Source: Thermoleophilaceae bacterium (GTDB taxonomy: Bacteria; Actinomycetota; Thermoleophilia; Solirubrobacterales; Thermoleophilaceae). Taken from it: a stretch of 64,000 bases of DNA. This document shows positions 8,070-53,243 of the stretch, in pieces (position 1 is the stretch's first letter; each line of letters opens with the position of its first letter). The stretch lies in NCBI GenBank assembly GCA_036378175.1, contig DASUWY010000040.1, positions 1 through 64,000 on the forward strand, in the 5' to 3' direction. A program made the position numbers and the translations under genes. Under the pieces are notes generated by a model. The model did not search any database. It saw only the letters and a program-made list of their open reading frames with translations, and was not told the DNA's origin.

Positions 8070-8104
8070 GAGGTCAGAGGTCATAGGTCAGAGGTCAGAG
8101 GAGT
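8070..8104. repeat. Heptamer array A, GAGGTCA-type (KAGGKCR family)
   Basis: Units of exactly 7 bp: GAGGTCA, GAGGTCA, TAGGTCA, GAGGTCA, then a degenerate GAGGAGT. The third unit (T for G at position 1) links this array to the TAGGGCR arrays near 13.05 and 18.88 kb. It lies in the 248-bp non-coding stretch between the acyl-CoA ligase start (8024) and the small HTH gene (8294). Apart from the terminator at 8241-8262 I see no other feature in that stretch. Confidence 0.85.
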
Positions 8105-8240
8105 GAGAACGGGCGCGAAGACCAAGCGAATCAAGGACGCAGGGAGGCCATAGGGCGCCAGCCCGTGGCCGACCGAGGACGCCGAGTCGCGCAGGTTTGC
8201 AGCGTCCGCGCCGGCGGAGAGAAACGCCAGGCAAAAAGAA

Positions 8241-12983: not shown

Positions 12984-13004
12984 CGAAGAACTGGCCAGGC
13001 TAGC

Positions 13005-13068
13005 GAGGTCGGAGGTCGGAGGTCGGAGGTCGGAGGTCGCGCCCTATGCCCTATGCCCTATGCCCTCA
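13005..13068. repeat. Compound heptamer array B (GAGGTCG x5 facing TAGGGCA x3)
   Basis: Five exact tandem copies of GAGGTCG (13005-13039) abut three exact copies of GCCCTAT (13041-13061, TAGGGCA-type on the minus strand) and a degenerate fourth. The two blocks are in opposite orientation. The second block runs into the epimerase gene and supplies both its last residues and its stop codon TAG (13046-13044). It lies between the epimerase end and the GH2 start. Both unit types fit the consensus KAGGKCR. Confidence 0.9.
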
Positions 13069-17258: not shown

Positions 17259-18881
17259 ATGGGCTACAGAAAGTACCGGCTCGGCAGCTACGACGAGATG
17301 CGTGCACAACATCGGTGGGAGGTTCCGGACCGTTACAACGTCGCTGCCGACGTATGTGACAAGCACCCGCCGGACCGCCTCGCGATGATTTGGGAGGACT
17401 GGCGCGGAGACGAGCGGCGGGTGACGTTCGGCGAGTTGCAGTCGCTGTCGAACAAGTTCGCGAACGTGCTGGAAGCGCACGGCGTGGAGCGCGGGGACCG
17501 TGTGGCCACGCTCTCGCCGTCCCTGCCGGAGACCGCCGCGGTGTTCCTCGGCACATACAAGGCGGGCGCGATCCTGCTGTCGATGTCCGTCCTGTATGGC
17601 GACGAGGGCATCGAGCACCGGCTGCGCGACTCGCAGGCGAAGGTGCTGGTGACCGACTCCGCCAACCGCCATCGCATCCCCGAGGGGCTGGCGGAGGTGA
17701 TCTTCGTCCTGGACGGCCAGTCCGACTCGGCCGACATCGATCTGTCCGCGGCTCTGGGGCAGGCCTCCGACTCCTACTCGATGGTCGACACCGCGGCCGA
17801 CGATCCCGCCCAGCTCTATTACTCCTCCGGCACCACGGGGATGGCGAAGGGCATCCTCCACGCGCACCGCTATCTGCTCGCGCACGAGGAGTTCGAGTTC
17901 TGCCACGACGTGCAGGAGGGCGAGCTCTTCCACGGCTCGGGCGAGTGGGCGTGGGCTGCGGGCATCTGCCCGCTGCTCGGGCCGTGGCGCTACGGGTGCG
18001 TGCAGTTCGTGTACGCCCGCAAGGGCGGCTTCGACCCGGAGGAGCAGCTCCGCCAGCTGTCGAAGCACGGGGTGCAGAACATGTTCACCACACCCACGGC
18101 TCTGCGCGCGATGCGGGCCGTGTCGGACGCGGGCTCGCGCTTTCCGCTAGACCAGATGCGGATCGTATGCAGCGCCGGCGAGCCGTTGAACCCCGAGGTG
18201 ATCCACTGGTTCCGCGAGCAGTACGGGCTCACGGTGCTCGACTACTACGGGCTCACCGAGAGCTATCCGCTGTGCGGCAACTTCCCTTCCGTGGAGGTGC
18301 GGGAGGGCTCGATGGGGCTGCCGCTACCGGGCTGGGACGTGGCGATCCTGGATGAGGACGAGCGACCGCTCCCCGCCGGCGAGCGCGGCGAGATCTGCCT
18401 GCGGGCTCGCTCGAACCCCCACTACCCGATCGGCTACTGGAACCGCCCAGAGGACACACGCGAGGTGTTCGAGGGCGAGTGGTTCCACACGAAGGACGCG
18501 GCGCAGATGGATGAGGACGGTTACTTCTGGTACGCCGGCCGCGCGGATGACGTGATCATCTCCGCCGGTTACCGGATCGGGCCGTTCGAGGTGGAATCGG
18601 CATGCGTGGAGCATCCAGCGGTGCTGGAGGCCGCGGCGGTGGCCTCACCCGACGAGAAGCGCGGCACGATCGTCAAGGCGTTCATCGTCCTGAACGAGGG
18701 GCACTCGGCTTCGGACTCGCTGGCGGACGAGATCAAGCGGCATGTGCGCGAGCGGCACTCCGCGTACGCGTACCCGCGTGAGATCGAGTTCGTGGCGGAT
18801 CTGCCCAAGACTCTGACGGGCAAGATCCGGCGGGTGGAGCTGCGCGAGGCGGAGCGGGAGCGGAAGCAGTCGGCGGCGTAG
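17259..18881 (+). CDS. Acyl-CoA synthetase (AMP-forming), medium-chain/acetate-like
   Basis: A 540-residue ANL adenylating enzyme closest in pattern to medium-chain acyl-CoA or acetyl-CoA-like synthetases. Motifs are YYSSGTTGMAKGILHAH (ATP loop), DYYGLTESYPL, the hinge YAGRADDVIISAGYRIGP and the C-terminal catalytic lysine in LPKTLTGKIRR. A strong ribosome site GAGGAGG precedes ATG 17259, and the longer frame upstream is spurious. Its stop codon is the first TAG of a three-copy TAGGGCG array, and a hairpin follows. Likely substrates are short or medium carboxylates; specificity cannot be read. It is divergent from the thioredoxin-fold gene. Confidence 0.93.
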   Translation: MGYRKYRLGSYDEMRAQHRWEVPDRYNVAADVCDKHPPDRLAMIWEDWRGDERRVTFGELQSLSNKFANVLEAHGVERGDRVATLSPSLPETAAVFLGTYKAGAILLSMSVLYGDEGIEHRLRDSQAKVLVTDSANRHRIPEGLAEVIFVLDGQSDSADIDLSAALGQASDSYSMVDTAADDPAQLYYSSGTTGMAKGILHAHRYLLAHEEFEFCHDVQEGELFHGSGEWAWAAGICPLLGPWRYGCVQFVYARKGGFDPEEQLRQLSKHGVQNMFTTPTALRAMRAVSDAGSRFPLDQMRIVCSAGEPLNPEVIHWFREQYGLTVLDYYGLTESYPLCGNFPSVEVREGSMGLPLPGWDVAILDEDERPLPAGERGEICLRARSNPHYPIGYWNRPEDTREVFEGEWFHTKDAAQMDEDGYFWYAGRADDVIISAGYRIGPFEVESACVEHPAVLEAAAVASPDEKRGTIVKAFIVLNEGHSASDSLADEIKRHVRERHSAYAYPREIEFVADLPKTLTGKIRRVELREAERERKQSAA

Positions 18882-18899
18882 GGCGTAGGGCGTAGGGCG
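18879..18899. repeat. Heptamer array C, TAGGGCG x3, containing the ligase stop codon
   Basis: Three exact copies of TAGGGCG. The first TAG (18879-18881) is the stop codon of the ligase gene. Because the unit is 7 bp, the three TAGs fall in all three forward reading frames. It belongs to the same KAGGKCR family as arrays A and B. Confidence 0.9.
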
Positions 18900-18900
18900 A

Positions 18901-52105: not shown

Positions 52106-52518
52106 GCCCGCTGGCACGGATGGAGACGCGCGCCGAGGGCGGCGCGATCGTCGCGACCGTGGCGGGCGAGCTCGACATCTCGAACGCCGCCGACCTGGGC
52201 TCGGCGCTCGAGGGCGCGGTGCCCCAGCGCGCGCTCGGCCTCGTGCTCGACCTGAGCCAGGCCACCTACATCGACAGCGCGGGCATCCACCTGCTCTTCC
52301 GCCTCGGCGGCCGCCTCACCCGCCGCCGCCAGCAACTCCGAGTGGTGGTGCCCGACGCGGCCCCGATCCGCAAGATCGTGAACCTGGCCGGCCTCGGCTG
52401 GACCGTCCCTCACGACAGGAGCGTGCCGGAGGCGCTCCAGCGGCTCAAGGCCGAGGTGGCGCCGCAACTTGGCGAGGAGAACTGGGTGAGCTCCCAGGAC
52501 TCGCCGTTCTACTACTAG
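52102..52518 (+). CDS. STAS-domain anti-sigma factor antagonist
   Basis: A 138-residue STAS protein. VAGELDISNAADLGSALEGA and LSQATYIDSAGIHLLFRLGG are the family's core strands; the Ser in YIDSAGI is the residue phosphorylated by RsbW-type kinases in SpoIIAA and RsbV. Its start overlaps the stop of the SpoIIE/HATPase protein by 4 bp, making that protein its obvious kinase and phosphatase. A C-terminal extension (~25 residues, QLGEENWVSSQDSPFYY) goes beyond the usual ~110 residues. No sigma factor is adjacent, so the final target lies elsewhere. Confidence 0.93.
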   Translation: MSPLARMETRAEGGAIVATVAGELDISNAADLGSALEGAVPQRALGLVLDLSQATYIDSAGIHLLFRLGGRLTRRRQQLRVVVPDAAPIRKIVNLAGLGWTVPHDRSVPEALQRLKAEVAPQLGEENWVSSQDSPFYY

Positions 52519-52532
52519 ACGGTTCTCGCCGC

Positions 52533-52841
52533 GCGGAGCGGGCAGGCGGAGTTGGGAGGGCGGTCTTCCGCGCGCGGTCCCTTGCTTCGCGGCCGTTACA
52601 GCAGCAATAAAGGGTTGGTCCCGGTGTGGCAGACAATGACTGCCGGAAACCGACGGCAGAATCTGCCACTTGGCTCGGATCCACCCGCGGAGCGGGGAGG
52701 CGGAGTTGGGAGGGCGGTTTTCCGCGCGCGGTCCCTTGCTTCGCGGCGGTTACAGCGGCAATAAAGGGTTGGTTTCGGTGTGGCAGACAATGACTGCTGG
52801 AAACCGACGGCAGAATCTGCCACTAGGCCTCGGACCCACCC
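52533..52841. repeat. 154-bp tandem duplication with conserved hairpin
   Basis: Copy 1 (52533-52686) and copy 2 (52687-52841) match base for base apart from a few substitutions and a 1-bp indel. Each contains a long hairpin: outer arms GTGGCAGA/TCTGCCAC and inner arms CTGCCG/CGGCAG (52626-52669 and 52780-52823). In copy 2 the inner arm reads CTGCTG, which keeps pairing through G-U. Located 15 bp after the STAS gene. No convincing protein is encoded. Confidence 0.92.
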
Positions 52842-52860
52842 CTTATTGCTGCAGTAAGCG
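52594..52860. repeat. MITE-like unit with ~28-bp inverted ends overlapping the tandem repeat
   Basis: The left arm 52594-52621 and right arm 52832-52860 are inverted copies: over the core 52601-52621 versus 52832-52852, 19 of 21 positions pair (GCAGCAATAA then GGGT then GGTCC). The second tandem copy carries an internal third arm (52755-52775). No transposase or target-site duplication is evident. Could be a non-autonomous mobile element or simply a large foldback RNA. Confidence 0.6.
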
Positions 52861-53243
52861 CGGCGAGCCAGGACGCCGCACGAGGAGAACGCCTCTGCAA
52901 CTCCGCACTTCCGCAGCTCCGCCCGCTCCCAGGCCGAAGGCCTGGGTTCCTGGGGTGCGGAGGGGTGGCACGGCCCTGTGCCAGCCCCTCCGCGGGCTCG
53001 CGTTCCGGTGCGATGGACGCGGCCACTTCCCAGGGGGTTCCGGTACTCACAGCTAGAGACGCCCGCTCTCGTCGAAAACTTCCCGCCGGGTTTTTTGCGA
53101 ATTTGACCGCGGGAGTCGCGTTAACCGCCCCCCGCCGGCTACGCCTCGCCCCACGGGCGAAATGCCTGGCAGCCGCACGGACACGGCGCTGCCGCAGAGC
53201 CAGGCTATGCGTGCCCCCAAAGCCCCCGTCCAGAAGGACTCGC
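52861..53243. other. Non-coding stretch with strong hairpins, no gene seen
   Basis: No frame here has a plausible start, ribosome site or recognisable product. Two strong stems stand out: CCCAGGCC/GGCCTGGG with a GAA loop (52928-52946), and a 15-bp stem GCGGAGGGGTGGCAC / GTGCCA-G-CCCCTCCGC with one bulged G and a 6-nt loop (52957-52993). A T6 run occurs near 53092. The stretch may be a leader RNA for the gene at 53244 or part of the repeat block upstream. Confidence 0.55.

Follow-up and report, generated by a model that had tools for sequence, protein, structure and literature searches.

We found that the tandem duplication behind a STAS-domain gene in the window (the whole 64,000-nucleotide stretch of Thermoleophilaceae DNA analysed here) is best read as one of the copies of a nested, palindromic insertion element restricted to its genus, representing a non-coding member of a class of S23-linked elements framed by inverted arrays and moving as an array-framed unit. 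We put the probability of this reading at about two in three. The membership of the window element in the S23-linked, array-framed class, judged by anatomy and association, is well supported.

Anatomy of the duplicated element

The STAS-domain gene (52120-52518, forward strand, as are all window features given below; codon-usage gene call, with a sister-species ortholog at locus L113) ends in a stop codon at 52516-52518, 13 bp ahead of the element. Across the window, TRF detected a single array of this kind: two tandem copies of a 154-bp period at 52532-52841 (score 550). The copies (52532-52685 and 52686-52839) can be aligned in register over 143 bp at 94% identity; base by base, they show 8 differences in the first 143 bp, followed by indel-like divergence at the end. 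The 154-bp tandem duplication 3' of the STAS gene and its hairpin, both reported in a first-pass annotation of this DNA, are thus confirmed.

Copy 1 consists of a left array, a left B arm, and a centre C. The left outer array A (52532-52563) is a decayed run of an ~8-mer (GCGGAGC..GCGGAGTT..) that matches by eye the reverse complement of 52892-52929, recurs at 52686-52717, and fails the strict array test. The left B arm (GTTACAGCAGCAATAAAGGGTTGG) occupies 52588-52618 in copy 1 (family alignment A1; match to model R1 at 52588-52702) and 52742-52772 in copy 2 (R1 match at 52742-52866, E 2.9e-18 in the genome). It is followed by the centre C hairpin, GTGGCAGA..CTGCCG..CGGCAG..TCTGCCAC, at 52626-52669 in copy 1 (-23.7 kcal/mol, z -6.0) and, in its CTGCTG variant, at 52780-52823 in copy 2 (-21.5 kcal/mol, z -4.6). 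There is a single right B arm (CCACCCCTTATTGCTGCAGTAAGCGC, 52833-52866), whose sequence is the reverse complement of both left B arms (inverted repeat I1, also seen in the fold). The right outer array A (52892-52929; inverted repeat I3) is an 8-mer run, CTCTGCAA CTCCGCAC TTCCGCAG CTCCGCCC GCTCC, inverse in orientation to the decayed left run, and its 8-mer is the same as that at the S23-framed loci L120 and L123. From the outside in, the element is therefore a nested palindrome of inverted ~8-mer arrays (A), long arms (B, GCAGCAATAAAGGG/CCCTTATTGCTGC), and a hairpin (C). The intact order is A-B-C-B'-A', and the window copy, which has no S23 gene, reads A-B-C-A-B-C-B'-A', meaning that its left half and centre have been doubled.

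The stems at 52928-52993, which the first-pass annotation had joined to the duplicated region, are real, but they form part of a separate conserved block (52945-53049) located outside the repeat element. Over 104 bp, this block shows 96% identity to its counterpart in the sister species, and its three-way-junction fold is similar in both. It is non-coding and lies between the STAS and histidine kinase genes (at about 1097-1200 of L113 in the sister), where the adjoining intergenic sequence does not align. The block has no Rfam match and may represent a small RNA or a terminator.

Other 7-mer arrays were observed in the window at 8070-8101, 13004-13039, 13041-13067, and 18874-18900 (units GAGGTCA, GAGGTCG, GCCCTAT, GGCGTAG), none of them with an S23 gene. 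Two of these units correspond to ones that frame S23 genes at other loci in the genus (L124, L122), and in the array at 18874-18900, position 18875 starts in a stop codon. By eye, we also noted a second dispersed repeat family, GACCAAGC..AGGACGCAGGGAGGC..GACCGAGGACGC..GCAGGTTTGCAG, in the window at ~8100-8215 and at L107 and L114.

A dispersed family restricted to one genus

A BLAST search of the 154-bp unit against its own genome (G000) pointed to about 20 further places. A covariance model of the B+C core gave 44 matches at ~24 sites in G000 and 21 matches at ~11 sites in the sister species (G001), the only genome of the same genus retrieved; most palindromes match the model on both strands, for which the site counts allow. 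The first-pass annotation had considered that the unit might lack relatives; it clearly has them, with about 25 scattered copies in this genome and ~11 in the sister species. Beyond these two genomes, the covariance model found one match only, a weak one, in the 199 other genomes of the order (201 in all). An exact B+C pattern run over ~85,000 species, a search that may omit the records nearest to the window, matched one record, the Thermoleophilaceae MAG JAICJR01.

The element family is solid. Its members are about 0.1-0.4 kb in size, with long inverted arms, and come in nested grades: A without B (L110, L212), A+B, A+B+C, B+C, and C alone (L085/L100). By the strict test, about 11 of the 36 listed B/C sites, a minority, have clean inverted arrays; several low-scoring sites in the list may be chance matches.

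Placement behind stop codons and absence from sister sites

Nearly all copies are localized directly after stop codons, and in several cases the stop codon TAG is inside the array itself, e.g., GAG-TAG-GGAGTAG. The listed sites are all intergenic between protein genes, none being inside 23S rRNA; according to the codon-usage gene caller, and with some weak-scoring sites included, 19 of the 36 lie between convergent genes, 15 between tandem and 1 between divergent genes, while 1 is doubtful.

Orthologous sites in the sister genome were located with flank probes. Between the same genes, we found 245 bp in G000 vs 69 bp in the sister (L075/L106), 228 vs 4 bp (L077/L108), 158 vs 54 bp (L078/L109), and 248 vs 97 bp (L072/L118), and at L079/L110 the sister keeps the array hairpin only. 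In turn, L080/L099 and L082/L102 are old copies common to both species, and L085/L100 is a common copy consisting of C only. Several sites thus hold no element in the sister, so that copies are gained or lost as units. Candidate short direct repeats, as a target-site duplication would leave, were read by eye at L075 and L078. At the window site of the sister (L113), there are different inverted arrays (GTGCCGA-type) and neither B nor C. Array units can likewise differ between L122 and L124, and such differences at one orthologous site do not fit a simple model in which the element moves as one unit.

RNA-level selection or DNA palindromy

A functional RNA structure at gene 3' ends, i.e., a bidirectional terminator or an mRNA-stabilising hairpin, could have been spread by selection and not by self-movement. 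We consider this possible but on the whole somewhat unlikely. The 3'-end bias and the share of convergent sites speak for it, as does the persistence of the architecture at the window site in G001 despite a different array sequence. So does the very stable fold of region 52520-53010, which lies far below that of shuffled sequence in energy (z -8.5; B+C core, z -6.4), as it must for a long palindrome. In addition, at L085/L100 the two species have CC/GG and GG/CC, respectively, in the inner stem, an apparent double swap, which suggests that pairing can be kept. Against it, four or more orthologous sites do without the element while the neighbouring genes stay the same, and closely similar copies stand at unrelated genes, essentially in one genus only. 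Moreover, the sequence after the stems holds no U-tract.

The pairing data do not favour RNA-level selection either. The first-pass annotation had described a hairpin preserved by a compensating change, hinting at selection on RNA structure. The hairpin does fold in both copies, and its pairing is kept; yet the CTGCCG/CTGCTG difference comes down to a one-sided change (C at 52644 vs T at 52798) that turns a C-G pair into U-G and weakens the stem. The proposed covariance model and covariation test placed family-wide covariation near background: among the eight fullest copies, 8 pairs had changes on both sides, barely above the 5.2 +/- 1.5 in shuffles (25/500), and the covariation score was matched by shuffles in 30/500 cases. 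With copies oriented by the upstream gene, we counted 24 G-U vs 20 A-C mismatches. Selection on RNA should favour G-U, and hence these counts do not show pairing to be kept at the RNA level; of the two tests for such selection, covariation was weak and strand asymmetry absent. DNA palindromy accounts for the pairing as well as RNA does.

Inverted arrays frame S23 genes

The link between the palindromes and S23 became apparent at one orthologous site (L086/L111), where one set of 8-mer arrays (CAGAGTTGCGGAATTGCGG...) is present in both species but surrounds a B hairpin in G000 and, in G001, a 146-aa ORF. This ORF matches PF05635 (23S rRNA intervening-sequence protein, S23). We found four PF05635 genes in G000 and two in G001, plus one decayed, all framed by inverted arrays. 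The framing units are GGAGTAG (L119, L121), the GGAGTTGC-type 8-mer (L120, L123), GGGCATA (L122), GTGACTG (L125), and GAGGTCG (L124). Around B/C elements, we see arrays of the GGAGTAG and GGAGTTGC types, i.e., units that also frame S23 genes. The remaining convincing PF05635 matches in the order are flanked by inverted arrays too, and none were found at a weak match in a 545-aa protein (L129). A pattern search for GGAGTAG arrays gave 27 matches in one genome and 59 in the other, vs 1 and 0 with the pattern reversed; these arrays far outnumber S23 genes. At L207 (450-1560; G001:C59), long inverted GGAGTAG arrays enclose about 1 kb with a GntR-like ORF and no S23, so that S23 is not the sole content of the array frame.

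S23 proteins are about 110 aa long and have no known catalytic domain; XCC0516 of Xanthomonas campestris (2gsc) was the only solved-structure sequence match to the S23 of the sister species. The idea that the B arm was copied from an S23 UTR was rejected, as only the array and the adjoining GGAGAA edge are convincingly common to the two. At L125, L127, and L126, which represent three genera and two families, S23 occupies the same intergenic site (carboxylase/BKACE-like genes) within three different 7-mer units. At 48-56% identity, the three proteins do not clearly group together to the exclusion of other S23 proteins, so that either vertical descent or re-insertion at this site would fit.

Generality of the association

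PF05635 matches were detected in 43 of 396 Actinomycetota genomes. Taking the S23 loci of the order and the phylum together and counting those with full flanks only, we observed inverted 7/8-mer arrays at 31 of 33 loci (period 7 at 23, period 8 at 8), and no inverted arrays by periods 9-11. The same period-specific test was positive for 0/57 control genes (taken from these loci and from the window) and for 11/300 mispaired flanks. Among S23 genes on plasmids of Cyanobacteria, Azospirillum, and Gemmatirosa, which represent three other phyla, 9/12 are array-framed, and two of the three plasmid negatives look array-like by eye; the plasmid probe was an S23 consensus-like sequence used for searching only. 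Several plasmid S23 genes are found inside an operon, with one of its genes on either side, e.g., between cas10 and cmr3. The Picosynechococcus plasmid locus L170 is such a case, and on a Pseudanabaena plasmid (L165) an S23 gene is located between cas6 and cas4; both are array-framed. The listing of '23S rRNA IVP' as CRISPR-linked (PMC10910872) may be explained by array-framed S23 genes among cas genes.

We determined that array unit similarity tracks S23 protein identity (Mantel r 0.27, p 0.0002) and jumps above ~55% identity. Near-identical units are found at different sites, as for L119/L121 (78% S23 identity) and L120/L123 (79%). In the literature covered, outside which lie preprints and most subscription papers, we found no published description of the S23-array link.

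These data bear on the view that inverted tandem repeats at gene 3' ends mark passive hot spots, generated by slippage and hairpin-templated repair, where S23 genes and B/C palindromes merely land. Polymerase slippage was earlier invoked for heptamers (PMC4692102), arrays without S23 exist, and at a given site the unit can change from species to species (window/L113, L122/L124, L125/L127/L126), all of which agree with this view. However, the unit follows the S23 clade and recurs nearly unchanged at different sites, and with 94% of S23 loci framed, S23 would have to land almost nowhere else. We regard passive landing as unlikely.

Relation to known elements

Like 23S rRNA intervening sequences (IVSs), the elements described here are small hairpin-framed insertions in transcribed regions, with a PF05635 ORF in the S23-carrying loci; ORF-less hairpin IVSs exist too, and it has been proposed that IVSs transpose and are mobile. 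In the Coxiella 23S rRNA IVS, an S23 ORF lies in a hairpin frame cut by RNase III, and the IVS was suggested to be a mobile element (PMC4990558). In contrast to IVSs, our elements are intergenic, at mRNA 3' ends and not in helix 45 of 23S rRNA, and where the Coxiella IVS has a 28-bp terminal stem, inverted 7/8-mer arrays serve as the frame.

The arrays also recall the Xanthomonas heptamer repeat GGGAATC, present as 70-75 convergent inverted pairs per genome (PMC4692102), as well as the heptameric repeats of Nostoc and the cyanobacterial STRRs (PMC4692102; TAACTGA in PMC4679880). In these reports, heptamer repeats are read as G-quadruplex or regulatory repeats, and S23 or four-helix-bundle proteins are not mentioned (PMC4692102, PMC4679880). 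Common to both are 7-nt tandem units in an intergenic position, often near an ORF; our arrays have period 7 or 8 only, and the window copy differs in carrying a decayed 8-mer run.

Avd, the accessory protein of diversity-generating retroelements (DGRs), has a four-helix bundle fold related to S23. PMC10053308 names PF05635. A DGR was rejected, as neither G000 nor G001 yielded a match to the reverse transcriptase domain (RVT_1). REP/BIME sequences are likewise small palindromes at gene 3' ends; a REP/BIME system with RAYT was rejected as well, since the Y1 transposase domain (Y1_Tnp) was not found in G000 or G001, control genomes being positive.

The element might also be an ordinary MITE of a DNA transposon, with its transposase elsewhere or lost and with arrays and S23 as unrelated passengers. 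Similarly to MITEs and ERIC-type repeats, it is small, palindromic, multicopy, intergenic, non-coding, and present or absent between species. Yet a search for transposases of the Y1/RAYT family found none in either genome, and S23, whose elements have such arrays as well, is not a known transposase. Beyond the candidate repeats at L075 and L078, no target-site duplication was established. The ends are arrays of a variable unit and not a fixed terminal repeat, and the array-S23 link stands far above the controls. We hold an ordinary MITE to be quite unlikely. Finally, a standalone structured RNA kept by compensatory change is highly improbable: despite strong folds in both copies, the single C-to-U change is one-sided, covariation is near background, the sequence belongs to a dispersed repeat family, and Rfam, at gathering score and at E<=1, gave nothing credible, which bears out the first-pass annotation in that no known RNA family applies. 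Of that annotation's two proposals, a structured RNA or a repeat hot spot, the latter came close, and its interpretation is partly supported.

Proposed course of events and its limits

On the reading we favour, an array-framed palindromic element would have been placed just behind the STAS stop codon, and a later local tandem duplication would have doubled its left half and centre. Coding members of the array-framed class would carry the S23/four-helix-bundle gene (PF05635), and the array-framed unit would move as a whole. We infer that movement depends on S23: the protein would recognise its cognate array and help move or maintain coding and non-coding units using host enzymes, and the B/C palindromes would ride on the S23-recognised frame. 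When transcribed, the palindrome would fold at the mRNA 3' end, where it could be tolerated in the way that 23S rRNA tolerates intervening sequences, or act as a terminator or RNase III substrate.

Several observations count against this explanation. No target-site duplication was established, the B arm has no clear ancestor in S23 elements, and S23 lacks a known catalytic domain. The shortage of clean arrays at B/C sites, the decayed left array of the window copy, and the GGAGTAG frame without S23 at L207 point in the same direction.

Significance

Taken together, the array frame and S23 suggest a class of apparently mobile element that has largely been overlooked. We tentatively propose, at rather less than even odds, that S23 genes across phyla are the coding part of an undescribed recombinase-free mobile element whose ends are the clade-matched 7-/8-mer arrays, and that non-coding palindromes use these ends in trans and settle at stop codons. 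Genes for S23 'four helix bundle' proteins occur in many bacteria, with no agreement on what they do, and separate reports describe heptamer arrays as intergenic repeats lacking an explanation. If true, the pairing of S23 with arrays of a clade-tied unit would offer a common explanation for both, and it would make a direct test available, namely the binding of S23 to its own array. The 23S rRNA intervening sequences would then be one niche of a wider element, and the stacked palindromes at some gene 3' ends would be accounted for.
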